From assembly GCA_913058495.1 (NCBI GenBank), contig CAJXQC010000004.1:1-64000 (forward strand): 64,000 nucleotides of DNA. The letters run 5' to 3'. Source of the DNA: an uncultured Balneola sp. (GTDB taxonomy: Bacteria > Bacteroidota > Rhodothermia > Balneolales > Balneolaceae). The position numbers and the translations under genes are program-made. Positions 1 to 64,000 of this stretch are shown piece after piece (the stretch's first letter is position 1; each line of letters begins with the position of its first letter). Under the pieces are notes generated by a model. That model did not search any database. It had not been told where the DNA came from and worked only from the letters and a program-made list of their open reading frames with translations.

Positions 1-23
1 CGCGCCAATAATTCTTGTCGGGA

Positions 24-172: not shown

Positions 173-197
173 ACCCTAGATTGAGAAGACTTAAATA

Positions 198-587: not shown

Positions 588-620
588 ATAATTCCGGCAA
601 CTGTTTTAAAATATTAGCAT

Positions 621-647: not shown

Positions 648-674
648 TTTAAAAATAAGAGATTTTTATAAGAA

Positions 675-1283: not shown

Positions 1284-1317
1284 TTTTCTAATAATTTCTT
1301 GATCAGATGACAACAAG

Positions 1318-1656: not shown

Positions 1657-1688
1657 ATCTTACATTACTTTTAAGAAACAGATTGTAA

Positions 1689-2306: not shown

Positions 2307-2310
2307 AATC

Positions 2311-2805: not shown

Positions 2806-2820
2806 TTTTTATGATAAAAT

Positions 2821-41100: not shown

Positions 41101-44100
41101 TTCAGGTTTCTGATTTTGAAGATGCAAGCGGGTTAATATCCAGAGAGATTGATATAGTACCCTCCAACGCCACTCCTGTTTTAGCAGCCATTGAAGGTGC
41201 TACTATTTCGTTTACTGAAGGTGACGGTCCTACTTCTTTAACTTCAACTATTACAATTTCCGATTCCGACGATACAAATCTGGAAGAAGCAACCATTCAG
41301 ATCACAAACAATTACTTTTTAGGAGAGGATGTACTTGATTTTGTTAATGCAAATGGAATAACATCCAATTTTAATTCGGGTACCGGCACATTAACTCTTT
41401 CAGGAACAGCAACAGTTGCAAATTATCAGGCAGCCCTCAGATCAGTTACTTTTGAGAATATCAGTACAGACCCTGTCACCGGTTTAGACCGCACTGTAAC
41501 CATTTCTGTGAATGACGGCTTAGATGACAGTAATACTCAAACCAGAGACATTTCAGTTTCAAGTGTAAACACTCCTCCTGTTCTTGATGATATTGAGCAG
41601 GATGCGATTCTGTACACAACTGGAGACTCTCTAGAAGTTTCAGATGATATTACTGTTTCTGATTCTGATGATACAAATATAGAGACCGTTACTTTTCAAA
41701 TAACCGGAAACTATGACAGCTCTGAAGATACTCTTGTTTTCGCTGATATCTTCGGAGTTACAGATTCCTGGATAGATGGAACAGGAACACTGACATTAAC
41801 TGGTCCTGCAACAAAAAACGACTTTCAAAGTGCTCTCAGAACGGTACGATATGCCAATACTTCTTCCAACCCATCCGATCAGCAGAGAACTATTTCGGTT
41901 ACAGCAAATGATGGTGATGATAACAGTAATATTGTTACTCGAAATGTGACCGTGAGCGTTCCTGCAACCATCAATGACCTTACGGTTTGGTTAAAAGGCG
42001 ATGATGGAACATTCAATGCCACATCAGGTGGAAGTGCAAGCACTAACGGTGGAAATGTAAGACGATGGGAAGACCAAAGCGGGAATAATCATCATTTCAT
42101 AACATCGGGAACTGCACCAACCTTTCGAACTGGTGTAGGAAGTATAAATTCACAAAACGCCATTGAATTTCCTGGCGGCGGAACTGTTGTTCGTTTAGAA
42201 GATGCTGACGCAGAAACTCAGTATTTGAATGGTCTGGATGAGTTTACCATATTTTTTGTAATTGAATCTGATATTACAAACACTGATAGAGGTTTTTGGA
42301 CAACATACCAACCGGATGGAACCGGAGACGATAAATTCTTCAATATCAGATATGATGCAACAGGAACAAGTGGTACAAACATTATTACGGCTGGATTAAG
42401 GGAAGGGGAATCTTCTGATTTTTTACTACAAAGTTTCTCTGATGCGCAAACTACATCTGGTCAAATAATTGCTTTAAAGTGGCAATCTGAAGAATCATTC
42501 GATATGTATGTGGATGGTGTTCTGAACAACCCTTCCGCATCAGGTAATATCCCTACAGGTTTACTTACCAACTTAACTACTGCAATACTTGGGCAAAGCA
42601 GTAAAGATCAAAACAACAGCTGGGATGGCTTGATCGCTGAAATGCTGTTCTATTCTCGAGAACTTTCTATTTCCGAACAGCAAAATATAGAAGATTACCT
42701 CTCCTTAAAATATAGTATTCCTATAAGAAATCTTACTGCTGCTACCGGTGGAGAAGCAATATCTGCAGACGATGCTTCAACAACCTACACTACTTTATCA
42801 GGGCCAAGAGTTCAGGAAAGTTTTATAGGTGAATACACTTCGAGCGGCACTTTTGTATTTAAAGCTCCAGCAGGTTTTGAATGGGATACCGGCGGTGCTA
42901 ATCCCTCTGCTTCAGTAGCTCCTGCTTTCGGGGGAAGTACAAATCTGGCGATTTCCTTTACAAGCAGGTCTTCAACTGAGATAGCATTTACTGTCACTAC
43001 CGCTTCCTCTACTAATCCTGCTGAAATCACTTTCAATGGATTCAGAGTAAGGCCAACAACTGGAACTCTCCCAAATGATGGAAATATCAGGAACATTGGA
43101 ACTACAGGCTCCGGAGGTACAACCAATTATGGTACATTGACAATGGTTGCCGGAACTCAAATCGCAATGGCTTACTCACAACAACCGGGAACATCAACTG
43201 TAAATTCACCTATTTCTCCATCAGTAAGGATACAGCTTGTTGATCAATTTGGTAATTCTGTGGAAGAAGGTGGCGTAGATATTGATGTAGCTTTGAATGT
43301 AGTTAGTGGTTCAGGAGTTTTTACCGGGGGCTCAACTACTACTATCAGGACAAATTCACTTGGAATTGCTGACTTCACAAATCTTCTTATTGACGATACA
43401 GGTTCATACACTCTTACCGCTACCTCTTCAGGGTTAGCTTCAGAACTTAGCAACGAATTTGATGTAGTAGTGCTAGGACAACTTACAGAGTTTAAAATAG
43501 AAAGAGTTCCTTCCGGAAATATTTCCAATAAACTGGCAGGACAAAGTTTCAACATAAAAATTTCAGCTGTTGACGGAACTGATGCAGTAGTTACAGACTT
43601 TTCAGGAACAGTTGATATTTCTTCTTCCTGTACATTAGATGCCGGACAAGGTACCTCCCCTGCATTCACATCCGGAGTGTTATCCTCACTTACTGTTAGT
43701 ATTAGCAGTGTTGGATCCTGTTCCATCATAGCCACTAATTCTGCAGGCTCCGAGACCGGTGAAAGTAATAGTTTTAATGTTACACCCGGTGCAGCATCCG
43801 CAACCACTACTCAAATTACTGCAAGCCCAACTGTGATCTTTAATGATGGATTTTCTACCTCTACTATAACAGTACAAGCACGGGATGCATCCGGAAATAA
43901 CGTAACTGTTGGAGGTGCAACTATTGCTCTTTCAGCAACTGATGGTTCTCTGGGAAGTGTAACAGATAACTCTGACGGTACATACACAGCAACGCTTACT
44001 TCTTCTATTATAGAAGGAACTGCAACCATTACAGGAACTTTAAACGGTAATTCCATTTCTGATAATGCTCAGGTTGAATTTGCAGCTTTTAATAAAATAT

Positions 44101-46100: not shown

Positions 46101-46215
46101 TATTTTTGTCCCATTTAAAACGAGTTAGAATTACCTAATCCTGGTTTACTCATTATCGTTTAGTAGTATATTAGTCTATCTGTGACAAGCAGTTAATCTG
46201 GCTTTATAAGTAGAT

Positions 46216-49200
46216 ATGACAAATTTTTTTACCAAATACCTCTTCATATCTGTAGCACTTTTTTTCGGGCTTAGTGAGATAGCAAATGCTCAACTTGGGT
46301 CATTTGCTGAAAGAAAGAAGTTTAATATAGAAAGTGATAGTATCAGTGGCGCTTCTGATCTAATAAATTTTCCGGTTCTGGTAAACGTAACTTTGCCATC
46401 GGGAGATGGGGAAAATGCAAACGGATTTGATATTGCTTTTACAGCTGGTGACGGTACTACACAACTGGACCATGACCTCGAATCTTATGATTCCGGTACG
46501 GGTGAGCTTGTAGCATGGGTCAGGTTCCCTTCTTTAAGTGCTACAACTGATACCCAATTTTTTATCTATTACGGTGACTCAGGGATTACCACCGATCAAA
46601 GCACAACTGATACTTGGAACTCGGATTATCAACTGGTAATGCATATGGACGGTGGCGCTACCGAAGATGATGCAACTTCTAATGCCAATGATGGCACAGA
46701 AAACGGAACGGGTGGAATTCCAACCACTTCAGGGAGAATCGGTGATGGTCGTGATTTTGAGCGGGGTGATTCAGACTTCATCTCTGTAGCAGATGATAAT
46801 AGTCTGGATATTACAGACGAAATCACAATTTCTTTCTGGTATAATCCGGAGTCAAACGCTGCACCTGATATGGTTACAAAGGGAACCAACACTTCATATG
46901 AGGCTACAATAAGGGGTGGTCCCCGAATGCAGTTCAAAAAAGAAGGTGGATCAAATCTTACTGCTGATGCTTCCTTTTCGCTCAGCAACTCAACATGGTA
47001 CTATTTAACCTATGTACAAGGAGCTTCAGGAAGGTCAATTTATCAAAATGGAGTTTCAATAAACACCGATGGCAATACGACTGCTTTTTCTACAAATGGA
47101 GATGCTTTACAAATTTCCAGATCAGGTGATGCCGCTGACGGCATTATTGATGAAGTCAGAATTTCTGATATAGAATTAAGCGAAGATTGGATAGCTACTG
47201 AATATGCTAACCAATTAAATCCCTCAACTTTTATAACAGAACTGGATGACCTGCCCAGCTTACAAAATATTGAATCAACTGCTGCAACATATACGGCAGG
47301 TGGTTCAGCAATATTTATTACATCCGATTTAACTATTGGAAGCCACCCCACTGTTACAACATTAGATAGTGCCGTAATTCAAATATCTAACAATCTAGAT
47401 AATCCTGATGATCAACTTGGCTTTTCTGATCAATTGGGAATTACCGGAACATATACCGCTGCAACCGGAAAACTTTTACTTTCGGGAACTACTTCTTTAG
47501 CCAACTACCAAACAGCGCTTAGAGCAGTTACTTTCAGTAGCCTTGTCGGGACTCCAAGCCAGCTCACAAGAACGGTTTCTATTACGGGGTACAATGGCTC
47601 TTCAGCTACCAACACTCCAGTTAGAGATATTGATATTATCTGCACATTAACTGATTTAACTACTGACATTTCAAATATCGTTTTCCATTTTGATGCACAA
47701 GATCTGGATGGAGACGGTACTGCAAATTCTGCGGAAGGTTCCCCTCCAACCAATAACTCTTCAGTTACTTTATGGGGAGATCTCAGCACAAACAATTTTG
47801 ATTTCGCTACAGGTACTGCAGCATTATTTGACTCCTCAGGCTTTGGTGAACGTGGTGCTGTTACCTTTGATGGAACGAACGATGAATTAATAAAAGGTGG
47901 AGAAGCGCTGATTAACAACGATGATTTCAGCCAAAAATCTTTTGCTATTACAATCCGTACAGGAACATCTACAGACGGATTTCAGGTAATATATGAGCAA
48001 TCCAGTGGCGGACTAGGTTATAATTTCAGTATCGTTGATGGAAATTTATACGCTCATGCTTACAACAGAAGCAGCGCAAATTGGGGTGCATCCAACTCCT
48101 TGAGACATCGAGTTATAAATCTTGGTACTGTGCAATCAAATCAATCCTACATAATCATAGCATATCATGATTCTAATGTTTGGGCTGCTGAGTTAAACAA
48201 CGGTTTACTAGAATCTTTTTCCGATGCCGCTGATATGAATTCTAATAACAATAGCATAGGCTTGGGTGGTAATGATGGCTCGCAGACCCGAAATCCAATT
48301 ACACTTTCGAATGAAAACGGAAATTTTAATGGACAAATTGTAGAATTTGCTTCTTGGAACACATCGCTAAACGGTGGGCAAAGAGCCAGTATATATAATT
48401 ATTTTAACGACAAATGGGGGAACGTTCCTCCTGTCTTATCTTCCATTGAAGGTACAAATTTAGATTTTACAGAAGGCGATCCGGATACTCAAATCACCAA
48501 TACTATTACTGTTTCAGACAGCGATTCTCATAACAATATGGATAGCGCAAAGGTATCTATAACTACAAACTTTATAACCGGTCAAGACTCTCTCATCTTT
48601 GCTAATACTGCAAATATTACCAGGACTTATAATGGAACTACGGGCGTGTTACTACTTTCGGGAAGTGATACAAAAACAAATTATCAAACTGCATTGCGAT
48701 CTGTCAATTATCGTAATACCCAATTTAATCCTTCAACGAATACTCGAACAGTTGAATTTGAAATTTATGACTGGGATGATGTAAGTAACACTGTGAGCAG
48801 AAACATAAATATCAACAATCCTGATGCAACACCTGTGCTTGCAAATATTGATAGTGGAGATTTAGCTTATACAGAAGGTAATGGTGCAGTAGCAATTACT
48901 TCTGCTATTACAGTATCTGACGTCGATGACACAAACATAGAAAGTGCAACTATTTCCATTACCGCTAACTACTTTATTGGTGAAGATTTTCTCGACTTTA
49001 CAGACACCGGAAATATTTCAGGCAGCTTTGCTTCAGGAAGTGGGATATTAACTTTAACCGGAAGCGATACTAAAGCGAATTACCAAACAGCGCTTAGAGC
49101 TGTAACTTATCAGAATACCAGCTCAGACCCGGTGACCCTTGACCGAACTATTTCTTTTGTCGTCAATGATGGAGATAATAACAGTAACACACAAAGCAGA

Positions 49201-52200
49201 GATGTGACAGTAGCTACAGTAAACTCGAAGCCTGTTCTTAGCTCTATTGAATCATCAAATATTCCTTATCCTGATGCTGCTGTTCAGATTACAAATACTA
49301 TTGTAGCTTCTGATCCTGATGATACCAGACTTGACAGCGCATTTGTAATAATTTCTGAAAATCTGAAACCTGCAGAAGATTCTCTTATTTATTCCACCCT
49401 TTTCGGAATTACGGGAAGCTGGAATCCAAATACAGGAATTCTCAAACTTACAGGGAATAATTTATTAAGCGATTATGAAGCAGCATTAAGATCTGTGGAT
49501 TATATAAATACTGCCACCATAGCGTCAGGCCCCGAACGAGTAGTTAGTTTTATCGTTAGTGACGGTGATCTCAAAAGTGATACTCTAAAACGTACCATCG
49601 ATGTAAGTCCGGTAGAAACCATTCCTGATCTTGAAGTTTGGCTTAGGGCAGATGCCGGAATTTCTGAAGGAAACGGAGTTTCTATTACGACCTGGGAAGA
49701 TCAAAGTGGGAATGGAAATGATTATACAGGTGCAGCTGGTTCAGGTACAACTCCGACTTTTGTAGCAAGTTCTGCAACTTTAAACAGTAAGCCATCGGTA
49801 AACTTTATAGGAAACGGAGATCACTTTCTCGATAGTGACGGACAAACAAATTACATCAACGGAAACAATGAGTTCAGTATGTTTATTGTTTATAAATCTG
49901 ATGTTACAAATACTGATAAAGGACTTTTTATAGCTGATTCTCCTTCAGGAGCTGATGAGATTCTGACTATTAGATACGACGCTTCAGGAGCAAATGGTGG
50001 TGGATCATTTAATGATGTAGTAAAAACCGGAATTCTGGGTAATGGTGCCGACAACCAGTTAGAAAGCTTTTCTGATATTCAAACATCCGGAGCACAAATA
50101 ATTAGCTTGCAATGGGAAAGCGGTACAACATACGATCTATATGTAGATGGAATTTTGAATAATCCGAGTTCTGCGGCTGACCCTCCCCCATCAGGAACAA
50201 TTACAACTGCAACTACTGCTTTGCTGGGAAAAGGAGGAAAAGATACCGGAAATAGCAGTTGGGATGGCGAAATAGCAGAATTCATTTTCTATAGTCGTAG
50301 TATTTCCCAAACGGAACGGGAAAGTATAGAGGATTATCTTGCAGACAAATATGATCAGGCAATTCGTAAAATTACTCCGGCGATTGGAGGAGAATCGATC
50401 TCAGCTGATGACGCAAATACTACTTACACTTCGTTAACTGGTCCATTTATTCAGGAAGGATTTATTGGTGAGTTTACATCTAGTGGAACAGTTATTCTTA
50501 ATGCTCCTTCAGGTTATCAATGGAATACAAGCGGAACAATTGGAGTAACTGAATCTCCTGCTTTTGGTGGATCAACAGAATTAGACGCTTCTTTCACCAG
50601 CATCACTTCAACTACAGCAACTTTTACCATAGATGTAGTTTCATCAACCAATCCTGGACAACTACAATTTACCGGCCTGGAAATTCGTCCAACAACAGGA
50701 ACTATGCCAAACACAGAAAATATTATCAATTCCGGAACAACCGGACAAGGTGGAGCAACCAATTACGGAACAATAACCATGGTTCCGGGATTGAAAGACA
50801 GTTTGGTGTTTGTTCAGCAACCAACAACTACATCAAAAGACTCGATCATTACTCCAGAAGTTCGGGTACAACTGGTAGATCAACACGGAAACAGTGTTGA
50901 AGAAGCAGGCATATCAGTTGGTATTAATCTTTTCGGTGGAGCAGGAATTTTATCAGGCACAACTTCCACAAATACAAATGCTTTAGGAATTGCTGAATTT
51001 GAAGACTTAAGCATTGATGATGTTGGTACTGATACATTACAAGCTACAAGTTCAGGATTAACTTCGTCCTTAAGCTCCTCTTTTAACATAGTGAATGATG
51101 GGGTTTTAACCGGATTTATCGTAGAAAGAGTACCCTCAGGAAATATCAGCTCTAAAACTGCAGGTCAAAGTTTCAATATCAAGATCACAGCCGTTGATGG
51201 CTCCTCTACTACTGTAACTTCGTTTAACGGAACTGTAGTAATTTCATCGAATTGCACAATGGACTCCGGGCAAGGAACTTCCTCCGTTTTTTCTTCCGGT
51301 GAACTTGCATCCACAACTGTAAGCATTACCAGTACAGGCTCTTGTACAATAACTGCTACCAATTCAGCCGGCTCTGAATTTGGAAACAGTAATTCATTTA
51401 GTGTAAGCGCAGGGGCTGCGTCTGAAGTAACATCGCTAATTTCTGCATCGCCAACAGTTATTTTGAATAACGGATCGAGTACTTCTGTAATAACAGTAGA
51501 TGTAAAAGACGAATTTGGTAATAATATAACTATTGGTGGAGATGCGATTACCTTATCAACCACCGCGGGCACCTTAGCCAGTACAAGCGGTTCAATTATT
51601 GATAACAGTGATGGAACATACTCTGATACTCTTACATCAACAATGGTTGAAGAAATTGCTACTATTTCAGGAACTGTAAATTCGACAACTATTACAGATA
51701 ATGCACTGGTAGAATTTGCCGCGTTCACTCATATTTGGGAGAGCCAACTTGGTTCTGCAAGCCTCGCATCAGACTGGGAAGAAACAGGAAATTGGAATGT
51801 CGGCAATGTACCCGGAACCAATTCTGTTGTTTTTATTCCTTTAAATCCTGCAGTAGGTAATGAACAACCTGTGATTGATGTTACAGGAAGTACAGTAGCT
51901 TCAGTTACCATGGAAACCGGAGCTTCACTATCCATTTCCGGAGGAATAAATTTCACAATCACGGGCAACCTTTCCGGAGGCAGCGTACTTGGAACCAATG
52001 CTGACAGCATCACTGTTGGAGGTGATATTCTGGATGTAAGTGCAATAAATGTTGGTACGGTTGTTATGAATGGAACTTCCGCCCAAAGTATTACTAACCC
52101 TCATGCATACACAAATCTTGTGATTGATAATGCTAACGGTGTAACAGTAGAAGAAAATCTCGCCATCAATGACAGTCTTATCATGACATCCGGCGAATTG

Positions 52201-53727
52201 CTTATACCAAGTGGAAAAAATCTTGTTGTTGATGGTATCAGATATGGAACCGGAACTTTACGTTTTCAAAGAAAAATATCTGGTGTAAGAGGGTGGCGCA
52301 TTCTCTCCTCTCCTGTTTCTTCTACATTTGGTGATTTTTTGGATGGCACATTAACCCAAGGATTCACGGGATCAACACTTGGCAATGCAACTCTTGATAG
52401 CTTACAACCCAATGTCCTTACTTATTTAGAAAGTTTTGAAGGCACTGACAATCAACGATACAGAAGTCCCGGAAACGCCACAGATCCATTAGTACAAGGT
52501 CAGGGTATTTTTGTGTTCTTTTTTGGAGACATAGCAGCAGATGCTCGCTATAATAATCCGCTTCCGGATACACTAGATGTTAGTGGACAAGAATTTAATG
52601 GTGCAGCCGGTGAAGTGGATTTTGGAGTCACTTATACCGCAAACGCTGATACAGGTTGGAATTTAGTGGGCAATCCTTTTGGCGCCACAATTAATTGGGA
52701 CGACTCACCAAACTGGACCAAAACCAATATCGAGAACACTATCTATATTTGGGACCCGGCTGCCAATGGTGGTAATGGTGAATATCTAACTTGGAATGGT
52801 ACCACAGGAACACTCGGTAGTGGTTTAATTCCACCATTTCAGGGATTCTGGATTAAAGCAAATGGTTCAACTCCTGTTCTAAAAGTTACTACTGACTCCA
52901 AAACAACCGGAGGATCGTTCCTAAGAAAAGAAATTAGGACGGAACAAACCAATGATGTCCCTTTGCTAACATTGGAACTTACCTCCAATGGATTAAAAAA
53001 AGATGCGAGCTTTATGTTTACTGATAATGCTTCAGAATCAAAAGATAATTTTGATGCATTTGAACTACTCCCTTTTACTGAAAACCGTTTAGAAATATTC
53101 AGTTTGCTAGATGATGGAACACCACTTGTCATAAACAACCTTCCGCTTGAGTTTACAAACAGATACTTACTTCCTGTAAATATAAATGGGTATAAAGAAG
53201 GCATTCCGATTTCGGGCGATTTCAAAATTAGAGGGAAAAATCTTGATAACATCCCAGATGAGTGGCTGATTTCGTTGATCGATAATGAAACAGGTGAGGA
53301 AATAGATCTTATAAATCAAGAAGAATACACGTTCTTTCACTCTACCAAAAGCAAAGCTAAAGTAGCCAACCCGAATACTAAACAAAAAGTAATTCGAAAA
53401 AAAGCCGGAGACGCACGATTCACTTTGAAAATTACAACTGAGGAAATCGAACTTAATATCCCGGAACAGCCTTTTTTATCACAGAACTATCCAAATCCTT
53501 TCAACCCAACTACCACCATTCCATTTGGCTTAGATGTAGATTCACAAGTTAGTTTGATTGTATATGATATTCTTGGCAGAAAAGTAGCTACTCTAATCGA
53601 CGGAAAACGACCGGCTGGTGTATATTATGAAATATTCATCGGATCACACTTAGCAAGTGGGGTTTACTTTTATCGTCTTTCTACAGATTCTCAAATTTAT
53701 ACTAAGCGATTCACTCTTATCAAATAG
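46216..53727 (+). CDS. Giant multidomain surface protein with T9SS sorting domain, paralog B
   Basis: A 2503-residue protein built like paralog A: signal peptide ending NAQ (about 26), DUF2341 (FPVLVNVTLPSGDGENANG), LamG-like domain, one cadherin-like repeat, second LamG-like domain (HFDAQDLDGDG), three cadherin-like repeats (nt 48430-49610), third LamG-like domain (VWLRADAGISEGNG), the ITPAIGGESISADDANTTYT domain, three Ig-like domains, the GWRILSSPVSS module and a sorting domain with QNYPNPFNPTTTIPF. It has one cadherin-like repeat fewer than paralog A before the second LamG. It starts at ATG 116 bp after paralog A and is followed by the fimbria-motor locus on the same strand. A role as adhesin is inferred. 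Confidence 0.88.
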   Translation: MTNFFTKYLFISVALFFGLSEIANAQLGSFAERKKFNIESDSISGASDLINFPVLVNVTLPSGDGENANGFDIAFTAGDGTTQLDHDLESYDSGTGELVAWVRFPSLSATTDTQFFIYYGDSGITTDQSTTDTWNSDYQLVMHMDGGATEDDATSNANDGTENGTGGIPTTSGRIGDGRDFERGDSDFISVADDNSLDITDEITISFWYNPESNAAPDMVTKGTNTSYEATIRGGPRMQFKKEGGSNLTADASFSLSNSTWYYLTYVQGASGRSIYQNGVSINTDGNTTAFSTNGDALQISRSGDAADGIIDEVRISDIELSEDWIATEYANQLNPSTFITELDDLPSLQNIESTAATYTAGGSAIFITSDLTIGSHPTVTTLDSAVIQISNNLDNPDDQLGFSDQLGITGTYTAATGKLLLSGTTSLANYQTALRAVTFSSLVGTPSQLTRTVSITGYNGSSATNTPVRDIDIICTLTDLTTDISNIVFHFDAQDLDGDGTANSAEGSPPTNNSSVTLWGDLSTNNFDFATGTAALFDSSGFGERGAVTFDGTNDELIKGGEALINNDDFSQKSFAITIRTGTSTDGFQVIYEQSSGGLGYNFSIVDGNLYAHAYNRSSANWGASNSLRHRVINLGTVQSNQSYIIIAYHDSNVWAAELNNGLLESFSDAADMNSNNNSIGLGGNDGSQTRNPITLSNENGNFNGQIVEFASWNTSLNGGQRASIYNYFNDKWGNVPPVLSSIEGTNLDFTEGDPDTQITNTITVSDSDSHNNMDSAKVSITTNFITGQDSLIFANTANITRTYNGTTGVLLLSGSDTKTNYQTALRSVNYRNTQFNPSTNTRTVEFEIYDWDDVSNTVSRNININNPDATPVLANIDSGDLAYTEGNGAVAITSAITVSDVDDTNIESATISITANYFIGEDFLDFTDTGNISGSFASGSGILTLTGSDTKANYQTALRAVTYQNTSSDPVTLDRTISFVVNDGDNNSNTQSRDVTVATVNSKPVLSSIESSNIPYPDAAVQITNTIVASDPDDTRLDSAFVIISENLKPAEDSLIYSTLFGITGSWNPNTGILKLTGNNLLSDYEAALRSVDYINTATIASGPERVVSFIVSDGDLKSDTLKRTIDVSPVETIPDLEVWLRADAGISEGNGVSITTWEDQSGNGNDYTGAAGSGTTPTFVASSATLNSKPSVNFIGNGDHFLDSDGQTNYINGNNEFSMFIVYKSDVTNTDKGLFIADSPSGADEILTIRYDASGANGGGSFNDVVKTGILGNGADNQLESFSDIQTSGAQIISLQWESGTTYDLYVDGILNNPSSAADPPPSGTITTATTALLGKGGKDTGNSSWDGEIAEFIFYSRSISQTERESIEDYLADKYDQAIRKITPAIGGESISADDANTTYTSLTGPFIQEGFIGEFTSSGTVILNAPSGYQWNTSGTIGVTESPAFGGSTELDASFTSITSTTATFTIDVVSSTNPGQLQFTGLEIRPTTGTMPNTENIINSGTTGQGGATNYGTITMVPGLKDSLVFVQQPTTTSKDSIITPEVRVQLVDQHGNSVEEAGISVGINLFGGAGILSGTTSTNTNALGIAEFEDLSIDDVGTDTLQATSSGLTSSLSSSFNIVNDGVLTGFIVERVPSGNISSKTAGQSFNIKITAVDGSSTTVTSFNGTVVISSNCTMDSGQGTSSVFSSGELASTTVSITSTGSCTITATNSAGSEFGNSNSFSVSAGAASEVTSLISASPTVILNNGSSTSVITVDVKDEFGNNITIGGDAITLSTTAGTLASTSGSIIDNSDGTYSDTLTSTMVEEIATISGTVNSTTITDNALVEFAAFTHIWESQLGSASLASDWEETGNWNVGNVPGTNSVVFIPLNPAVGNEQPVIDVTGSTVASVTMETGASLSISGGINFTITGNLSGGSVLGTNADSITVGGDILDVSAINVGTVVMNGTSAQSITNPHAYTNLVIDNANGVTVEENLAINDSLIMTSGELLIPSGKNLVVDGIRYGTGTLRFQRKISGVRGWRILSSPVSSTFGDFLDGTLTQGFTGSTLGNATLDSLQPNVLTYLESFEGTDNQRYRSPGNATDPLVQGQGIFVFFFGDIAADARYNNPLPDTLDVSGQEFNGAAGEVDFGVTYTANADTGWNLVGNPFGATINWDDSPNWTKTNIENTIYIWDPAANGGNGEYLTWNGTTGTLGSGLIPPFQGFWIKANGSTPVLKVTTDSKTTGGSFLRKEIRTEQTNDVPLLTLELTSNGLKKDASFMFTDNASESKDNFDAFELLPFTENRLEIFSLLDDGTPLVINNLPLEFTNRYLLPVNINGYKEGIPISGDFKIRGKNLDNIPDEWLISLIDNETGEEIDLINQEEYTFFHSTKSKAKVANPNTKQKVIRKKAGDARFTLKITTEEIELNIPEQPFLSQNYPNPFNPTTTIPFGLDVDSQVSLIVYDILGRKVATLIDGKRPAGVYYEIFIGSHLASGVYFYRLSTDSQIYTKRFTLIK
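48430..49610 (+). repeat. Three cadherin-like repeats in paralog B
   Basis: Units begin near 48430, 48832 and 49231 with PVLSSIEGTNLDF, PVLANIDSGDLAY and PVLSSIESSNIPY and follow the same pattern as in paralog A. A further, more degenerate unit lies at about 47262-47640, before the second LamG-like domain. Confidence 0.75.
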
Positions 53728-53844: not shown

Positions 53845-54360
53845 ATGAAGATTGTATCCAAAGCGTTATTTATAGTTTTACCTATTCTCCTGGGACTTAC
53901 TACTGGTGGATTTGCTCAAAAATCATCTCAAACTGCTAAAACCAATATAGAGATCACAACAACCATTGTAAGTTCTATAGAGCTTATTACCGTCAAAAGT
54001 ATCACTGTTGGAAACCTTCAACCTGGTCAGGAGGAAGTGTACATTAACTCCATAAATGACGCTAATGCGGGGTATATGATAGCTGTTGGCGCTCCTGGTG
54101 CTGATTTCAGGTTGAATTTTGAAAGAACAAGGACGCTTACTCAGGTAAATGGTGATGGAAGTTTAATTTTTGAATACGAACTTTCCGGAAATAATCTAGA
54201 AGATCAAAATAGTGCTGAATACATTGATGAAGATTTTAGAAGTCTTAAATTTAATTCTGAAGGTCAATTTCATATATGGGTTGGAGGGAAAATTGATTTA
54301 AGGAACGCGCGTCCCGGAAACTACGATGGAGATTTTACTATTGAAATTGAGTACATATAA
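53845..54360 (+). CDS. DUF4402-like pilin candidate 1
   Basis: A 171-residue exported protein with a signal peptide ending GFAQ (about 25). The mature protein is a single beta-rich domain whose C-terminal strand pair HIWVGGKIDLRNARPGNYDG is characteristic of DUF4402-type fimbrial subunits. It is the first of four such genes placed before a chaperone and an usher-like gene. Its stop overlaps the start of the next gene (TAATG). By analogy with chaperone-usher fimbriae it should be exported and assembled at the outer membrane; whether it is the shaft or a tip is not known. Confidence 0.75.
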   Translation: MKIVSKALFIVLPILLGLTTGGFAQKSSQTAKTNIEITTTIVSSIELITVKSITVGNLQPGQEEVYINSINDANAGYMIAVGAPGADFRLNFERTRTLTQVNGDGSLIFEYELSGNNLEDQNSAEYIDEDFRSLKFNSEGQFHIWVGGKIDLRNARPGNYDGDFTIEIEYI

Positions 54361-54968
54361 TGAGGTTTCTACAAACTTACATATCTGCTTGTTTATTAAA
54401 TGCCATTTTGGTTTTCTGCTTCACAGAAAATTCGACTGCTCAGGAAATTGATTTCGGTTCTTATAGTTCTGTTTACTCAGTTACGTTATCTGAGTTAAAC
54501 ATTGGGGAAGAATTAGATTTCGGATTACTGATACAAAACGAGGGATTGGTTTCAATACCAATAGCTGAATCCAAAGTTCTATCAATTTTGGGAGTTAAGT
54601 ACCTGGATGTAATTGTTGATATTACTGCAGATAATTATCTTCTGCTTAACGGCAACTTATCCTGCTCTACAGATCCTAGTTGCAGGATTCCATTCACTTT
54701 ACAAGCCTCCTATGCCAATAATGGATCCAATACTTTCAGCCAAGCTGTAAATTTCACAGTTGTTTCAAATGTAGCTAGTGCACAATTTCCGATAAAGCGC
54801 AGAGCCGGCGGACCGCCAAGCCCCCCGCCTACTCCGGTTTACGAAGGCTATAACCCTAATCTTTTTCAGGAAACAGCTTATCTTTATATATATGGTTCTT
54901 TAAATGTAGGCAACATAAATGCCGGCAGTTACACTGCTGATATAATAATTACTATTAGCTATGATTAA
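54360..54968 (+). CDS. Divergent pilin-like secreted protein 2
   Basis: A 202-residue exported protein (signal peptide ending STAQ, about 28). It is a more distant relative of the neighbouring pilin candidates: its end LYIYGSLNVGNINAGSYTAD aligns with the GGxID...GxYxGD ending of the other three. It carries two cysteines (CSTDPSC) that could form a small disulfide loop, and a proline-rich stretch GGPPSPPPTPV before the last strands. It overlaps both neighbours (1 bp upstream, 8 bp downstream). It may be a minor or adaptor subunit; this is inferred. Confidence 0.65.
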   Translation: MRFLQTYISACLLNAILVFCFTENSTAQEIDFGSYSSVYSVTLSELNIGEELDFGLLIQNEGLVSIPIAESKVLSILGVKYLDVIVDITADNYLLLNGNLSCSTDPSCRIPFTLQASYANNGSNTFSQAVNFTVVSNVASAQFPIKRRAGGPPSPPPTPVYEGYNPNLFQETAYLYIYGSLNVGNINAGSYTADIIITISYD

Positions 54969-55479
54969 TAACCTTGCTAAGATATTATTTTTATTATTTC
55001 TAGTGGTTTCACACAAACCTCTTTCCGCACAATTTATAAACCTTCAAATCACCATCGAACCTGAATTAAGTGCACAGGTAGAGCAAGTACTGGACTTTGG
55101 ACAGGTTGTTTCTAACTCAGGTGTTATGCAAATCGAACTTGGTGATTTGAATACAGGAATATTCAGCATTCGTGCTATAAGGTCCCAGTCTCTATATATA
55201 GAACTTAATCATCCTGATTTTTTGACTCGTGAAAATAATCCATCTGATCAGATTCCTTTAGAATTAAATGTGTCGTATAACAATTCGGGAAATGATAACA
55301 TCTCTAAATCACAAATACTTGCAGATCGCTCCGGTACCATAACAATTGGTGGTTCTGAAAACAATTCAGAGAATTTTTGGCGCAAACTTTATTTATATGT
55401 ATACGGATCTATTGATGTAGGTAACATTCCAAATGGACTATATAAAGGAGACGTTACACTCTTTGTAAGCTATGATTGA
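54961..55479 (+). CDS. Divergent pilin-like secreted protein 3
   Basis: A 172-residue exported protein with a signal peptide ending LSAQ (about 21). It shares the pattern of the preceding protein: a VLDFGQVVSNSGVMQIELGD beta segment and a C-terminal YLYVYGSIDVGNIPNGLYKGD. It starts 8 bp inside the previous gene, so their translation is coupled. It probably belongs to the same surface structure as the other pilin candidates. I cannot assign a specific role. Confidence 0.65.
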   Translation: MINNLAKILFLLFLVVSHKPLSAQFINLQITIEPELSAQVEQVLDFGQVVSNSGVMQIELGDLNTGIFSIRAIRSQSLYIELNHPDFLTRENNPSDQIPLELNVSYNNSGNDNISKSQILADRSGTITIGGSENNSENFWRKLYLYVYGSIDVGNIPNGLYKGDVTLFVSYD

Positions 55480-55598: not shown

Positions 55599-56138
55599 AT
55601 GAAAACTCTATTGAAATCTACTTTAGTTGTTTTGGCTGCTCTTTTGGTCTCTGGAACTTCTTTTGCACAAGGTTCATCAGATGATGCTACTGTATCTGCA
55701 AATGCCAATGTTGTAGCTGCTCTTACAGTTACTAATGTTTCTGACTTAAGCTTTGGAGACATCCTTACATCAGAAACTCCAACCATTAGTGCTACTACTA
55801 CAGGAGCTGGTTCTGTTTCAGTTTCCGGTGCAACAAGTGGTCAAACACTTAACGTAACAATAGATTTCCCTTCTGTTCTTACGGACGGAACTCCTGCTAA
55901 CGATTTATCATTTGATACTTACAGTGCAGCTGTTACAGCTTCTGGAAACGATTCTGATCCTACAAACGGTGTTGCATTAACTGGTGCTGCTACAGCAGGA
56001 ACTCAAATCACAGGAACTTTCGTTGCAGGAGCAACTGCAGCCCATATTTTCGTGGGTGGTCAAATTGATGACGCTTCAAGTGGTGTTGCTGGTAATTCAT
56101 ATGCAAACAATATTACAGTAACTGTAGACTATAACTAA
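55599..56138 (+). CDS. DUF4402-family pilin, probable major subunit
   Basis: A 179-residue exported protein with a signal peptide ending SFAQ (about 24) and a low-complexity, Ala/Thr/Ser-rich mature part without cysteine. It contains DLSFGDILTSETPTIS and ends AHIFVGGQIDDASSGVAGNS followed by a Tyr-containing beta strand, the DUF4402 pattern. It has its own upstream gap of 120 bp and a strong terminator right behind it, unlike the other three subunits. That would allow much higher expression than the rest of the locus, as expected for a fibre shaft protein. Confidence 0.8.
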   Translation: MKTLLKSTLVVLAALLVSGTSFAQGSSDDATVSANANVVAALTVTNVSDLSFGDILTSETPTISATTTGAGSVSVSGATSGQTLNVTIDFPSVLTDGTPANDLSFDTYSAAVTASGNDSDPTNGVALTGAATAGTQITGTFVAGATAAHIFVGGQIDDASSGVAGNSYANNITVTVDYN

Positions 56139-56266: not shown

Positions 56267-57097
56267 ATGAATAAATCTCTATACGCTATTACACTCCTTA
56301 TTTTATCTTTAAGCAGTATTACTGCTTTTGCACAGGTTACTATTGCTCCTACCAACTTATTTATTGATGACAATTCTAAGTTTGGTACTTATATGGTAAT
56401 TAACGGGTCCAATGAAACACAAGAAATTTCTATTGATTTTTTCTTTTCCTATGCAAATTTAGATAAAAACGGCAACCGTTCTTTAATCAAAGACGATATT
56501 GAAAAAGCTGAACAGCATTCTATTGTTGAATATGTACAAGCTTTTCCAAAAAACTTTAAACTTGCCCCGGATCAGCGACAAATTGTTCGATTGAGAGTTT
56601 CTGCTCCAAATGATCTTTCTGACGGCACTTATTGGTCTAGGATCAGAACATCTTCTACTCCAGAATCCCCACCGATAGAGCTGCAAACGGATCAAGCAGT
56701 TACAGCTCAGGTTGGCATTATAGTGGAACAAGTAACAGGGCTTTTTTATAAAATTGGGAACGTTAATACCGGTATAGAAATTAATACGATTCGCTCTGAA
56801 AGAGACGGGTCAAAATTGACTGTGCTTACTGACTTTTTGAAAACAGGTAACTCTCCTTTTTTAGGTTCGATATATACTTCCTTATTGGATCAATCAGGCA
56901 GAGAAGTAAAGACAGGATTCATTTCTACATCTATCTACTTTGATGGAACTCACAAACAGGAATTGGATATATCTGATTTAGCTAATGGTACTTATACAAT
57001 AAAAGTAACTTTTGAAACTAATCGCTCCGATATCTCTGAAAGAGACATTGTTGGTATGGAACCTGTAAACCAAACAACTTCTTTTGAAATCAATTAA
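56267..57097 (+). CDS. PapD-like periplasmic fimbrial chaperone
   Basis: A 276-residue exported protein with a signal peptide ending AFAQ (about 23). The N-terminal Ig-like domain begins VTIAPTNLFIDDNSKFGTYMV and includes NFKLAPDQRQIVRLRV, where the family motif for donor-strand pairing lies. The second domain has IRSERDGSKLTVLTDFLKTG. It is somewhat longer than classical PapD (about 240). Chaperones of this kind hold pilin subunits in the periplasm until delivery to the usher. It is 2 bp ahead of the usher-like gene, consistent with that role. Confidence 0.85.
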   Translation: MNKSLYAITLLILSLSSITAFAQVTIAPTNLFIDDNSKFGTYMVINGSNETQEISIDFFFSYANLDKNGNRSLIKDDIEKAEQHSIVEYVQAFPKNFKLAPDQRQIVRLRVSAPNDLSDGTYWSRIRTSSTPESPPIELQTDQAVTAQVGIIVEQVTGLFYKIGNVNTGIEINTIRSERDGSKLTVLTDFLKTGNSPFLGSIYTSLLDQSGREVKTGFISTSIYFDGTHKQELDISDLANGTYTIKVTFETNRSDISERDIVGMEPVNQTTSFEIN

Positions 57098-57099: not shown

Positions 57100-60081
57100 T
57101 TGAAGTGCAAAACTTCTTTTTTATATACAATTCTTACAGTTCTATTGTGCTTAAGTTCTGCAAAAGGACTGTCCGCTCAGGATACAACTGAAGAAACAGA
57201 AGTTTATTTAGACTTTCAATATCAAGGTGTGGTTAAAACAGTAGTAATAAGCTACTATAAAAATGATATTTTCTTTCTTCCGGTAACAGAACTATTCTCT
57301 CTTTTCAAAGTTCAGAATTCAAGAGAGGGAAATATAATTACCGGTAAATTTTCTGCAGATCAAACTCCTTTCAGAATTGATCTTGCTAAGCAAACAATTA
57401 AATTCGGTAATAAACAATTTTCTTTATCTACAGATGATTTCATTATACAGGAATTAGATGATTACCTCTCCCCCGGTATTTTTTCTGAAATATTTAAACT
57501 GAATTTCTCGGTTGACTTCAACAAGCTGATATTAAACCTTGAAACAGAAGTAACTTTACCCGTCGTTGAGGAAGCTTTAAGAAACCGACGGCGAAAAGTT
57601 GTAGAGGCTAATACCTATCAAAAAAATTATTATGACTTAGCTCTTGACAGAAATAAATCATTCTTGAATGGAGGTTTTGTTGATTACTCTTTAACAAGCT
57701 TTGTAACCAACAATGAAAACAGCTATTCCTATAGTACATCTTTAGGTTTACAGCTGGCCGGAGGAGACCTTCAGGGAAATGTATTTGGCAATTATACGAA
57801 CAACTTTAATATTTCCAGCAACAATCTTCGATGGAGATATGTAATTCGGAATAATCCCGCAATTACACAAGTTTATGTTGGGCAATCAACACTAGATGGG
57901 GTTTTAAGTTCGAATTTTACAGGCCTAAAAATTTCCAATCAACCCATAGAACCCAGAAGATACTTTGATGAATACGTTGTTCAAGGTTCTACAATTCCTG
58001 AATCAGAAGTTGAACTTTATTTAAATAATGCTTTGATCGGATATGAAAAATCTGATGAACTTGGCAATTATCGCTTTACAACACCTCTTTATTACGGAAC
58101 CTCTGATCTCGATTTGAAAATTTATGGTCCGACCGGACAAACTATTGACAAATCCACGAAAATTCAGGTTCCTTTCAGTTTCTCACCTCAGGGAGAATTT
58201 AATTACAACTTAAATGCCGGGGTTCTTGATAATCCATTATTAGGTTCAACAGAGCGTCCTTTGGTTGTTAATGCCAAAGCAACTTACGGTATAAAAAGTT
58301 GGCTTTCAGGCTCTCTTGGTACTGAATATTTTGAAGGAGCAATGGAAAATTCAACTCCAGCCCTTACAGGTGCCCTCTCAACTCGGTTTCTAACAAGTTA
58401 TATCCTTACTCTTGAAGGTGTTTCTCAAGGTTATTACAGATCAAATCTAAATGCATTTTTTGCGAACTCGGCAAACTTCAGTATAGATTTCACCAAATTT
58501 ACATCTGAATCAATCCTGTATAATTCTTCCGGAAGGGATAAGCAACTAAATACATCCTTTTTTTATCCTTTCACTGTAGGTAATCTGCCTTTAATTTCCA
58601 GAGTATCTACTTTCACTGTGTTCAGAGATGATGTTCAGTCTACTTCATTACGTTTAGATTTAAGTACAAGAATAAATAAATTTAATTTCAGGTTTGGATA
58701 CTCTGACCGTGTTCTTAATTCTTATAACTTTCTGGATCCAAGTTTTTCTTCTACTCTTGATAATTCCATTACTTATAACATTTCCAGAAACCCCAACATC
58801 CCAAAAATACTCCGGGGAACTTTTTTAAGAGCACAAATGCGGTTTTTACCAAAATTATCTAAAATTGAAACTGCTCAATTTGTTATCTCCAGAAATCTGT
58901 TTAATAGCGGGCGATTACAATTATCATATGGCCGAAACTTTATTAATAATTTTAATAACGTAAGAGCGAGTTTTGTAATTGACTTCAACAAAGCCAGATC
59001 AAACTCTACCTTTTCTTCAATCCGTTCAGATTATAGTGTTTCTCAAAATATTCGGGGCTCTTTGGGTTACGATACGAACTATAATAACTTTATTGTTACA
59101 AGCAGAAATCAGGTAGGAAGATCCGGAGCCGCTATCAAACTTTTTGTAGACAATAACAATAATGAAAGGTATGATGAGGATATCGACCAGCCAATTGACG
59201 CCGGCTCTATTAGAATAGACCGAACCTCAGCTTCTTCATTCCGTAAAAATGGAATTTTGTATTACTCACAAATGCAGCCTTATTTCCGCTATAATATGCA
59301 GGTTAATAAAGGCTCTATTGAAAACCCCTTATTAGTACCTGAACTTAATGAGTTTTCGATTATCACGGATCCGAATACCTTCAAAAAAATTGAAATTCCT
59401 TTTTATATGTCTGGAGTTATTGAGGGTAATGTCAATAAATATTTTGATGAACAAAACAATAGCGGGATAGGTGGCGTGAGAGTTCTTATCTCAGGTATTG
59501 ATAGCGACTTTTTCAAGGAATTGAGATCGTTTTCTGACGGTAGTTTCTACTCCTATGAAGTCCCACCCGGAAAGTATAAAATGAGCATTGATCAGAATCA
59601 GCTTAGTGTACTGGATTCCAGATCTGAGCCCGGTGAAATTGAATTTGAGGTACAAGCTTTGTCAGAAGGAGATTTTGTTGAAGGCTTATCGTTTCTTATC
59701 GTACCAAATGATTACAATCCTGATCAAAAAGAAGTAAGACCTACAGATGTTATTATAGCTGATATTAGTGAAACTACTGAGATCCTTGAACTAGAGGCAG
59801 AACTAGATGATAATATCACTAAAACTTTAAGGCTTATTATACAGGCGCAAACTGCTTTTTACAACAGAGATATTGAACGGGCTCTGACATTAGTCAACCA
59901 GTCATTAAGCTTATTTGAAACTGCACAAGGTTACGCTTTGAAAGGAAGTCTTAATTATTTGAAAGGTAATAAAGACGAAGCTCAACAGAACTGGGATCGG
60001 GCAGTAGAATTCAATCCGGATATCTTTATTCCGGATATAGAAATATTAGACCAATTAATTAGAACTCAACCAGGTAACTAG
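57100..60081 (+). CDS. Usher-like outer-membrane protein with regulatory-type and TPR-like C-terminal extension
   Basis: A 993-residue exported protein starting at TTG, 2 bp after the chaperone stop. After the signal peptide (about 1-26) come an N-terminal domain, a beta-barrel-like region of alternating strands, and the usher middle-domain signature FDEYVVQGSTIPESEVELYL with NALIGYEKSDELGNYRF. A long second barrel half follows. Residues about 685-870 hold FVDNNNNERYDEDID and a carboxypeptidase-regulatory-like domain (GVRVLISGIDSDF, EVPPGKYKMSID). The last 90 residues are TPR-like (AFYNRDIERALTLVNQSLSL, ALKGSLNYLKGNKDEAQ). Classical ushers lack this TPR tail. A similar segment closes the lipoprotein at 61963-62439. 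It is predicted to secrete and anchor the pilins. Confidence 0.78.
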   Translation: MKCKTSFLYTILTVLLCLSSAKGLSAQDTTEETEVYLDFQYQGVVKTVVISYYKNDIFFLPVTELFSLFKVQNSREGNIITGKFSADQTPFRIDLAKQTIKFGNKQFSLSTDDFIIQELDDYLSPGIFSEIFKLNFSVDFNKLILNLETEVTLPVVEEALRNRRRKVVEANTYQKNYYDLALDRNKSFLNGGFVDYSLTSFVTNNENSYSYSTSLGLQLAGGDLQGNVFGNYTNNFNISSNNLRWRYVIRNNPAITQVYVGQSTLDGVLSSNFTGLKISNQPIEPRRYFDEYVVQGSTIPESEVELYLNNALIGYEKSDELGNYRFTTPLYYGTSDLDLKIYGPTGQTIDKSTKIQVPFSFSPQGEFNYNLNAGVLDNPLLGSTERPLVVNAKATYGIKSWLSGSLGTEYFEGAMENSTPALTGALSTRFLTSYILTLEGVSQGYYRSNLNAFFANSANFSIDFTKFTSESILYNSSGRDKQLNTSFFYPFTVGNLPLISRVSTFTVFRDDVQSTSLRLDLSTRINKFNFRFGYSDRVLNSYNFLDPSFSSTLDNSITYNISRNPNIPKILRGTFLRAQMRFLPKLSKIETAQFVISRNLFNSGRLQLSYGRNFINNFNNVRASFVIDFNKARSNSTFSSIRSDYSVSQNIRGSLGYDTNYNNFIVTSRNQVGRSGAAIKLFVDNNNNERYDEDIDQPIDAGSIRIDRTSASSFRKNGILYYSQMQPYFRYNMQVNKGSIENPLLVPELNEFSIITDPNTFKKIEIPFYMSGVIEGNVNKYFDEQNNSGIGGVRVLISGIDSDFFKELRSFSDGSFYSYEVPPGKYKMSIDQNQLSVLDSRSEPGEIEFEVQALSEGDFVEGLSFLIVPNDYNPDQKEVRPTDVIIADISETTEILELEAELDDNITKTLRLIIQAQTAFYNRDIERALTLVNQSLSLFETAQGYALKGSLNYLKGNKDEAQQNWDRAVEFNPDIFIPDIEILDQLIRTQPGN

Positions 60082-61962: not shown

Positions 61963-62439
61963 TTGATGTCGACATCACTGCTATTTTCTTGCGGAAGTTC
62001 TAAAGATATGCCTGTTAATGAACCTGTAAATGCAGATCAAAATGAAGAAACTTTAGCTCAAACTGATAGTTCTGAGACAATTAGCCCCGACATTGATCTC
62101 GAAAAACAAAGAAGGGATTCGCTCACTCAAGTTTATAAAGATGAGCTTTACAAAGACTATCAGACGAAAGCCAACAGAATTACTACACTTTATATTCTTG
62201 CTCAGCAAAAATTTTATAGTGCTGAGTATCAGGACGCTCTATTTTTAATAAACCGTGCTTTACAGGTAAAGGAAACTGCTGATCTGTTAGCTTTGAAAGG
62301 AAGTATTTATTTGGGATTGGGTTCTGTTGAAAACTTCGTGGCTTTTTGGAGAAGGGCTCTCGAAATGGATGCAAACTTACCCATTCCTCCTTCTCCAGCC
62401 ATTGTTGAAGAATTAAAGAGGCAAGGCTTAATAGAATGA
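61963..62439 (+). CDS. TPR-like lipoprotein of the fimbria-motor locus
   Basis: A lipoprotein of about 158 residues with lipobox LLFSC. The first canonical start (TTG 61963, then ATG 61966) leaves only about eight residues before the cysteine. However, the frame is open upstream to 61900 and encodes a proper signal (NKQYISNAIILGICLMSTS), so translation may begin earlier at a rare start codon such as ATC 61915 or ATT 61948. The mature part has a charged linker and a TPR-like C-terminal region (AQQKFYSAEYQDALFLINRA, LALKGSIYLGLGSVENF) that resembles the tail of the usher-like protein. It probably sits on an envelope leaflet and bridges usher and motor; this is inferred. Confidence 0.7.
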   Translation: MMSTSLLFSCGSSKDMPVNEPVNADQNEETLAQTDSSETISPDIDLEKQRRDSLTQVYKDELYKDYQTKANRITTLYILAQQKFYSAEYQDALFLINRALQVKETADLLALKGSIYLGLGSVENFVAFWRRALEMDANLPIPPSPAIVEELKRQGLIE

Positions 62440-62474: not shown

Positions 62475-63272
62475 ATGCGCACATCATTTTTAAACATTTT
62501 TTGTTTCTTAGTTTCATTATCCATTTTAATATGGGGAGCCCTTCTTGTGGTTGGGTTTGCTCAATACAATATGATTCCATCTAAATATGAATTTCTGAAC
62601 CTTCCCAGCCTAGCCATTGTATTTGGAGGTATATCAGCAAGCGTATTTATCAGTTATCCATTTAAAAAAGTCATAGTAGCATTACGCGAAAGCACTCGAC
62701 TTTTTTCTCAAAGCAATATAGATGATCAATTACTTGAAAAGGATATTGAAAAAGTTTTAGAATGGCAGAAAAGAATACGGATCGATAAAATTAAAGCCGT
62801 TTCTGAATTAAGTGAAGAGTATGGAAATCGTTTTGAGGGGTATCTTTTTTCAATTTTAGATACTAATTATTCAACTGAAGATCTTCGTGAGTTAGCAGAA
62901 ATAAATATTCAGGAAACATTCACACGGCAACATCAGATCAATCAAATAATAGCGAGTATGGGTAAAACAGCTCCTGTCTTCGGTATGCTGGGTACACTAT
63001 TTGGACTTATTGTTATTCTATCCGGTTTTAATGAGATGGATTCACTGTTAACAGGACTTGCTGCTGCATTGATGACTACACTCTATGGAATAGTAATTGG
63101 GAACTTCATCTTTATTCCAATGGCAAAAAAGATGAATAATATTGCTTCTCTTCAATTTTTCAGAGAAAAACTGATATTGGAAGGTATTCTGTTGATTCAA
63201 CAACAAAAATCTTCACTTCAGATCTACGACAAACTCAAAGCTCATATGCATAGAACGAGCCAACAATTTTAG
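62475..63272 (+). CDS. MotA-like stator subunit
   Basis: A 265-residue inner-membrane protein of the MotA/TolQ/ExbB group, closest to MotA by its length, its four spans and its large cytoplasmic loop. Spans lie at about 9-29, 45-62, 165-185 and 195-216. The MotA-type signatures GKTAPVFGMLGTLFGLIVIL (Pro167) and GLAAALMTTLYGIVIGNFIF with Pro215 line the ion path. The loop region (about 70-155) carries basic and acidic residues (LEWQKRIRIDK, AVSELSEEYGNRF) as in MotA surfaces that contact FliG. It is 35 bp after the lipoprotein gene and followed 11 bp later by a MotB-like gene. It most likely forms an ion-driven stator acting on the FliG-like fusion. Confidence 0.88.
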   Translation: MRTSFLNIFCFLVSLSILIWGALLVVGFAQYNMIPSKYEFLNLPSLAIVFGGISASVFISYPFKKVIVALRESTRLFSQSNIDDQLLEKDIEKVLEWQKRIRIDKIKAVSELSEEYGNRFEGYLFSILDTNYSTEDLRELAEINIQETFTRQHQINQIIASMGKTAPVFGMLGTLFGLIVILSGFNEMDSLLTGLAAALMTTLYGIVIGNFIFIPMAKKMNNIASLQFFREKLILEGILLIQQQKSSLQIYDKLKAHMHRTSQQF

Positions 63273-63283
63273 GGTAGCGGAAA

Positions 63284-64000
63284 TTGAGTTTAGACCAGAC
63301 AAATAACACTAAAAATTCACTGTATCCTAAGCAGGAAATTGAAAATGAAGATGACGACAGTTGGCAAGTAAGTTATCTTGATATTATAACCATTCTCCTT
63401 GGTTTTTTGATCATTTTACTTTCTTTCTCAGACTTAAATGATGGTGAGCCCTTTTCTGTTTCTGAATTGTTCAAATCTTCTTTGAATGAAACCGAGTTTA
63501 TCACTACACCCATTGAAAACATTAAAGAAGAACTTGAAGGATTGCTGGCTCCTGAAATTGAACAAGGTAAACTTGAAATATTCAGAGAACTAAATGATGT
63601 CCGAATCAGATTTAAAAGCGACGATCTTTACAGTTCCGGAAGTGCAACTCTGGAAAACGAAGCATCAGAAATACTTAACCGTGTTTTAGCAGCTTTCAGG
63701 ATTATATCTTATGACGATTTTGAAATAGACGTTGAAGGCCACACAGATAACGTCCCTATTTCTTCTGCTAACTTTGATTCGAATTGGGAGTTATCTACCT
63801 CAAGAGCATCCAATATTGTAAAATATTTCAGTGAAATGGGGATTGCACAGGAACGTTTAAAAGCATCCGGTTATGCTGACTCCAGACCTTTGGTTGAATT
63901 TGATGAACAAGGCAATCCTTATCCTGCAAGCAAGGACAGAAACCGAAGAGTTGTTCTCCGGTTATTCTATTCAAGTCCGGAACAAATGGCAAAAGCAGAT
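63284..64000 (+). CDS. MotB-like stator subunit (3' end beyond window)
   Basis: An open frame of at least 239 residues starting at TTG 63284 and running off the window. It has a single membrane span near the N-terminus in which WQVSYLDIITILLGFLIILL carries the ion-binding Asp33 at the MotB position. A linker follows, then an OmpA/MotB peptidoglycan-binding domain with EGHTDNVPI, WELSTSRASNIVKYF, RLKASGYADSRP and KDRNRRVVLRL. Together with MotA it should form a peptidoglycan-anchored stator. Being incomplete here, its length and any extra C-terminal domain cannot be judged. Confidence 0.88.
   Translation, partial: MSLDQTNNTKNSLYPKQEIENEDDDSWQVSYLDIITILLGFLIILLSFSDLNDGEPFSVSELFKSSLNETEFITTPIENIKEELEGLLAPEIEQGKLEIFRELNDVRIRFKSDDLYSSGSATLENEASEILNRVLAAFRIISYDDFEIDVEGHTDNVPISSANFDSNWELSTSRASNIVKYFSEMGIAQERLKASGYADSRPLVEFDEQGNPYPASKDRNRRVVLRLFYSSPEQMAKAD

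Follow-up and report, generated by a model that had tools for sequence, protein, structure and literature searches.

The window, i.e., the whole stretch of 64,000 nucleotides that was analysed, ends in a MotA/MotB pair that is real and intact. Judged by its sequence, MotA is a stator subunit of the MotA/PomA type and not a TolQ/ExbB protein. The pair belongs to a conserved operon together with a fusion of FliF and FliG and with genes of a putative surface apparatus (Table 1). We presume, with somewhat more confidence than doubt, that an ion-driven rotary motor made of flagellar parts turns or energises this outer-membrane apparatus; the rotation, the ion and the output are inferred. What was computed is the family membership of MotA, MotB, the FliF part and the FliG part, the absence of FlhA and of FliM/FliN in a search of the genome, the conservation of the operon, and the joint loss of the torque domain and the stator.

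Table 1. Genes of the operon in the window, with the basis of each assignment
Feature	Position	Strand	Basis and remarks
pilA (name used here), small secreted subunit-like protein	53845..54360	+	DUF4402 24.5 bits, below the 25.2 cut-off; 14/14 type A loci
pilB, second small secreted protein	54360..54968	+	weak DUF4402, E 0.005; 14/14 type A loci
pilC, third small secreted protein	54961..55479	+	weak DUF4402, E 0.036; 14/14 type A loci
pilD, fourth small secreted protein	55599..56138	+	no family match; by position; model matches of 24 to 112 bits in L042-L049
Chaperone-like periplasmic protein	56267..57097	+	place and pattern only
Usher-like outer-membrane protein, C-terminal TPR	57100..60081	+	TPR_2 E 2.9e-4; homologues match Usher
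FliF-FliG fusion, 608 aa	60099..61925	+	signal/TM, then C-terminal half of FliF (periplasm), one TM segment and FliG (cytoplasm)
TPR lipoprotein	61963..62439	+	TPR_8 E 0.0043; lipobox read from sequence
MotA, 265 aa	62475..63272	+	Pfam, NCBIfam, PDB search, tree, residue alignment
MotB	63284..64000, truncated by the window; full length 574 aa, reaching contig position 65008	+	OmpA and three SPOR repeats

The operon and its surface genes

The gene order of the window, referred to as type A, is the same in 14 of 14 loci (the window, L004-L008 and L042-L049; relatives were taken from contigs of Balneola): three to four small secreted proteins, the chaperone-like protein, the usher-like protein, the fusion, the TPR lipoprotein, MotA, and a MotB with a SPOR-length tail (501-627 aa). 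Type B has no usher; all 11 of its loci (L050-L060) contain the fusion, a protein of 357-397 aa, the TPR lipoprotein, MotA, and a MotB of 220-230 aa. The third arrangement is found in f42, a family outside the class but in the same phylum, where the three loci with a full neighbourhood agree on a protein of approximately 370-383 aa, a TPR protein, MotA, MotB and the fusion; the fourth f42 locus, L141, is cut by the contig end. The TPR lipoprotein and the C-terminal TPR part of the usher-like protein are related, since the models of each cross-match.

Only weak similarity underlies the assignments of the usher and the chaperone. The Pfam Usher cut-off (27.1 bits) is passed by two of the 18 aligned usher-like proteins (L106 with 32.2 and L107 with 32.3 bits), and three of the 18 homologues reach this family at E 0.1 or better; the window protein itself has no significant match to the Usher family in Pfam. 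Comparison with the K-12 ushers FimD/SfmD/ElfC was not significant (probability 4.6), nor was that of the chaperone-like protein with the K-12 chaperones FimC/SfmC/ElfD (probability 1.0). The PapD family was not matched by the chaperone-like protein in Pfam, among the K-12 chaperones or in the PDB, and profile searches of the PDB with both proteins returned no usher and no chaperone. As the family matches are weak or missing, both proteins are named only "-like". For the fusion and the usher-like protein, structures were predicted from six-row alignments, and the models (mean pLDDT 47.6 and 47.2, respectively) are too poor to use.

The genes preceding the operon can be described as follows. 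Two giant proteins, related to each other, are encoded directly upstream in the window (38115-53727); they contain Laminin_G_3, Invasin_D3 and DUF2341 and have secretion tails. A DUF2341 extension is mentioned for some stator A subunits (PMC12505986). Small membrane proteins of pilin-like look precede type A operons outside Balneola (L043:255-2742, L047:54-1792), and a 485-aa protein among those preceding such operons matches DUF4900 and, weakly, Bactofilin. One type B operon is preceded by a bacterial alpha-2-macroglobulin-like protein of 1843 aa (L055:688-6219); L056 has a protein of 1841 aa at the equivalent place (no domain scan). In L008 the upstream genes are unreadable, approximately positions 1-3100 being a masked run (N).

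The upstream proteins allow one to think of a gliding machine, in which the motor would drag adhesins along or around the cell, the giant lectin-like proteins being the adhesins and the usher-like protein their track or anchor. Proteins of 1211, 2661 and 2503 aa upstream, the domains and secretion tails of the two giants that were scanned, and the long secreted proteins that precede type B operons too are all in line with it. However, the upstream proteins vary between operon types, and gliding is, according to PMC5167729, unreported in Balneolaeota. We consider a gliding machine unlikely.

The stator and its putative rotor partner

The MotA frame matches MotA_ExbB of Pfam with E 2.4e-18. MotP, MotA and PomA are its top NCBIfam models (the four highest scores are 115 to 101 bits, that of TolQ is 22 bits), although none of the best models reaches its curated cut-off; among solved structures, ten MotA/PomA sequences (E 1.4e-23 to 8e-11) are followed by two of TolQ (E 0.0015 and 0.002). 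The window genome contains three proteins of the MotA/TolQ/ExbB family, this MotA being one of them. The original prediction stated that the channel prolines in APVFGMLG and FIPMA are kept, which the alignment bears out: P167 and P215 correspond to E. coli P173 and P222, and both are invariant in 31 of 31 MotAs of the system. PomA binds Na+ through three threonines (PMC6677748), whose counterparts here are T174, T201 and T202; each of them is also found in at least 13 of 15 flagellar MotAs, whose ion use is mixed or unknown, and thus the MotA sequence does not decide the ion.

MotB starts with TTG at 63284, and its frame is still open at the window end. A disruption past this end would have refuted the prediction; the 574-aa protein is intact there, up to its end at contig position 65008. 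The membrane Asp33 and the OmpA-type domain ascribed to MotB were both recovered: Asp33 is in the column of E. coli D32, which is invariant in 32 of 32 aligned MotBs of the system, and the Pfam matches are OmpA (E 6.4e-15) and MotB_plug (E 2.9e-7). The three SPOR stretches were identified with the next stretch of the contig included. SPOR domains bind peptidoglycan, so the stator may be doubly anchored, by OmpA and by SPOR.

Between the window and L004, dN and dS are 0.015 and 0.49 for motA, 0.068 and 0.46 for motB, and 0.054 and 0.92 for the fusion; the surface genes change at a higher rate, their dN being about 0.4. This is a single unsaturated comparison; in more distant pairs dS was about 2 or could not be computed, and these saturated comparisons remained unused. 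A fast outer part on a slow motor would fit a machine that meets the outside world. The stator had been predicted to be active and anchored, not a relic. The latter point holds, considering the low dN relative to dS and the invariant prolines and Asp; activity is only inferred.

The pair was also said to follow directly after its FliG-like partner. The partner is real, but the TPR lipoprotein gene intervenes, so that the partner gene is two genes upstream of motA; moreover, it is not FliG alone but a FliF-FliG fusion in a larger surface-apparatus operon, which extends beyond the positions given with the prediction. Pfam detects FliG_C (9.1e-10) and FliG_M (9.6e-9) in the window fusion. With hhalign, its last part matches the whole FliG (E 1.7e-28, probability 99.8), and residues 40-245 match FliF columns 227-414 (E 8.5e-10, probability 96.5), the RGD motif included; hence the fusion retains the outer FliF domain, a single TM segment and the complete FliG. 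FliG_N, FliG_M and FliG_C are matched by each of the 18 aligned fusions (best 1.4e-21), YscJ_FliF_C by nine of them (best 1.9e-4). Among 394 genomes searched, the fusion model picks up seven FliF-sized flagellar frames of 541-553 aa (E 1.4e-6 to 3.3e-4), and in four of the seven (G502, G021, G013, G017; also G075) a FliG match lies beside the FliF-sized frame on the same contig. The fusion satisfies our criterion for FliG (N, M and C domains and a torque helix with equivalents of R281 and D/E289); it does not satisfy that for a full FliF (ring-building motifs 1, 2 and 3 and two TM segments), since the first two ring motifs are absent.

In the flagellar motor MotA R90 contacts FliG D289 and MotA E98 contacts FliG R281, E98 being held most important for torque (PMC7564593). 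R566 and E574 of the window fusion are equivalent to E. coli FliG R281 and D289. Across 37 fusions, the former position is occupied by R in 32, K in four and N in one, and the latter is E in 32; the D288, K264 and R297 positions are mostly replaced. Mapping of the MotA loop, proposed as a check of the prediction, gave a divided result: the window MotA retains R90, as R102, but not E98, where it has S110. A basic residue (R or K) occupies the R90 position in 13 of the 17 type A rows and in all 11 type B rows. The f42 loci (L140-L143) have Q, S or N at the MotA R90 position and R or H at FliG 289; there E98 is retained as E (3/3) and FliG 281 is K (4/4). Types A and B keep the R90-289 side and f42 keeps the E98-281 side, so that each lineage retains at least one of the two contact pairs. 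Both sides of one pair, MotA R90 and FliG 289, seem to have changed together in f42. These residue comparisons involve few independent events, and the cytoplasmic loop of MotA aligns at low identity.

The FliG C domain is found in 32 of 32 loci bearing MotA and MotB. Three loci with a full neighbourhood and no FliG C domain (L106, L107 and L109) all lack adjacent MotA/MotB, while they still have the FliF part and both the usher-like and the chaperone-like protein, i.e., a motor-less form of the operon; the partial-contig loci L099, L100, L102, L104, L105 and L108 were left out of this count. What is jointly absent connects the stator with the torque domain, and what is retained connects the usher-like protein with the FliF part. 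The genomes of L106 and L107 (G125 and G109) each have one MotA match, which is flagellar-type, 26% identical and located on a contig carrying FlhA; G092, which holds L109, has another copy that is complete.

A tree was built from 53 rows; the seven that are TolQ/ExbB-like are grouped on one side (98/99), and no MotA row is among them. Placement within TolQ/TolR or ExbB/ExbD, the other outcome that would have refuted the prediction, is not seen for MotA, and a TolQ/ExbB placement of it is rejected. The 15 flagellar MotAs group together (96/93), as do types A and B (91/98), and three f42 rows are near the base of the tree. In this sample, the stators of the system are outside the flagellar group. 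Sampling beyond the phylum amounts to four sequences, and long branches lead to E. coli MotA and to several of the TolQ/ExbB rows. The AU test did not reject an origin of the stator in the flagella of the class itself (p 0.135 when the system was grouped with the ten Rhodothermia-side flagellar MotAs and 0.099 with the seven nearest); a single clade uniting A, B and f42 can be neither asserted nor ruled out (p 0.318).

The system MotAs occupy the stem between TolQ/ExbB and flagellar MotAs, which lends some support to a Tol/Ton-like energiser: MotA/MotB would pull or shake the usher-like assembly for secretion, and the FliF-FliG ring would be a static scaffold. The loss of E98 in types A and B, the disappearance of the third and fourth FliG contact charges, and a partner that is an outer-membrane protein could be read in the same way. 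Nevertheless, the torque helix retains R281 and an acidic 289, the window MotA resembles MotA/PomA with much higher scores than TolQ, and loss of the stator is accompanied by loss of the FliG C domain, which is not required of a mere scaffold. We hold this explanation to be improbable, although it keeps some weight.

The proposed machine and known systems

The explanation that we prefer, a motor of flagellar parts acting on an outer-membrane apparatus, would include the following steps. Ions would pass MotA/MotB while MotB is held to the wall through its OmpA and SPOR domains, as follows from the families. The fusion would constitute an inner-membrane ring, with the FliG part in the cytoplasm against MotA and the FliF part in the periplasm. 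MotA would work on the FliG domain and turn the fusion ring; this step is inferred, as are ring formation and torque. The periplasmic FliF part is inferred to hand the motion to the usher-like protein, with the related TPR domains of this protein and of the lipoprotein as the probable link, so the ring would work on the usher-like protein in place of rod, hook and filament. In this manner the ion flow would turn or energise an outer-membrane apparatus displaying the small secreted subunits, again an inference, and its output could be surface motility, movement of fibres or adhesins, or driven assembly. The link to the usher-like protein, the ion and the rotation likewise have the status of inferences.

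Some observations speak against this explanation. The MotA E98 position is non-acidic in all 17 type A rows and in ten of the 11 type B rows (27/28 together), and D288, K264 and R297 of FliG are mostly not kept. The usher and chaperone are weakly supported, the structure predictions are poor, and no rotation, motility or fibre has been observed. In the absence of FliM/FliN, ring assembly and switching are unexplained.

With the core of the flagellar motor the system shares the protein families, FliG R281 with an acidic 289, the MotA prolines, and the MotB Asp with an OmpA domain. Unlike that core, it has FliF and FliG in one protein, FliF only as its C-terminal half, no FlhA and no FliM/FliN, SPOR repeats on MotB, and usher-like genes in the operon. 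The order of small subunits, chaperone-like and usher-like proteins resembles chaperone-usher pili of the FimC/FimD class, and two homologues pass the Usher cut-off; however, the chaperone family is undetectable, the usher-like protein is too remote from the K-12 ushers, and the TPR part and the motor in the operon are extra. GldLM of type 9 secretion and gliding is an ion-driven rotary envelope motor, as is proposed here, from the same broad phylum, and the upstream proteins here have T9SS-type tails; the stator here is, in contrast, MotA/MotB. A search for GldL gave no match, but the controls also remained unmatched, so its absence is not shown.

Stators have been divided into flagellar and generic kinds, TolQR, ExbBD, AglRS and Zorya being generic ion transporters (PMC12505986). 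The five-to-two stator fold in a non-flagellar use is common to these and to our system. The B subunits of the generic kind are described in that paper as lacking an OmpA-type domain, whereas MotB here has OmpA and a FliG-type rotor partner. An OmpA domain on MotB and a stator that faces FliG count, in the same source, as hallmarks of flagellar stators; in our system both are present although there is no flagellum. Whether rotor proteins exist without filaments has been raised as a question (PMC12199754).

We are unaware of a description of such a system: none was found in a literature search, which did not cover preprints and most subscription journals. It is possible, and we propose it only tentatively, that this is an undescribed class of envelope-spanning rotary machine, in which a flagellar torque generator (MotA/MotB and FliG on a half FliF ring) drives an usher-type or other outer-membrane apparatus. 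Such a class would have at least two architectures in two distant families of the phylum, and its stator lineage would stand beside, not inside, the flagellar stators, and so may keep pre-flagellum features. The apparent presence of a functional flagellar-type engine, linked to genes of another surface structure, in a marine bacterium without a flagellum suggests that the engine can drive non-flagellar machines. The operon is a testable candidate, considering that rotor and stator are together, under selection, attached to other surface genes, and present in a genome with no export gate. Should rotation be shown, the flagellar torque unit would be a portable module.

Occurrence with and without a flagellum

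The source genome of the window comprises 3.40 Mb and is 99.4% complete. Neither FlhA nor FliM/FliN was found in it (for both, controls matched in 4 of 14 genomes), and its sole FliG-like protein is the fusion; taken together, this means no flagellum. FlhA was not found in any of the eight Balneola genomes searched, and the fusion is missing from two of the eight (G003 and G007). The literature is not uniform here: the genus is described as having no flagellar assembly genes (PMC9909488), whereas flagella are reported for Balneola vulgaris (PMC5167729).

At E 0.001 the fusion model matches in 98 of 244 genomes of the class, ordinary FliG included. By the stricter cut, which demands at least 100 bits to the A2 model and an open frame of at least 500 aa, the fusion is present in 31 of the 244; G076 (a 228-aa frame with internal stops), G232 (75.7 bits), G125 and G109 remain outside this number. 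FlhA was found in 85 of the 244. Fourteen of the fusion-bearing genomes have FlhA and 17 do not, 12 of these 17 being at least 95% complete; the system thus exists both with and without a flagellum.

Chance retention of a relic of a lost flagellum, which might be argued from the incomplete flagellar gene sets in Balneolaceae that were read as gradual loss (PMC9909488) and from FlhA being absent in Balneola and present in many relatives, deserves hardly any credit and is rejected: every ion-path residue is intact, purifying selection is strong, the order is conserved in two operon types, and 14 of the 31 genomes bearing the fusion also have a complete flagellar FlhA, which indicates a separate system and not leftovers.

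Extra MotA-like proteins, 29% identical to the window MotA, were also observed at L148 and L149 (genomes G123 and G110); they are distinct from the flagellar-type matches of the same genomes.
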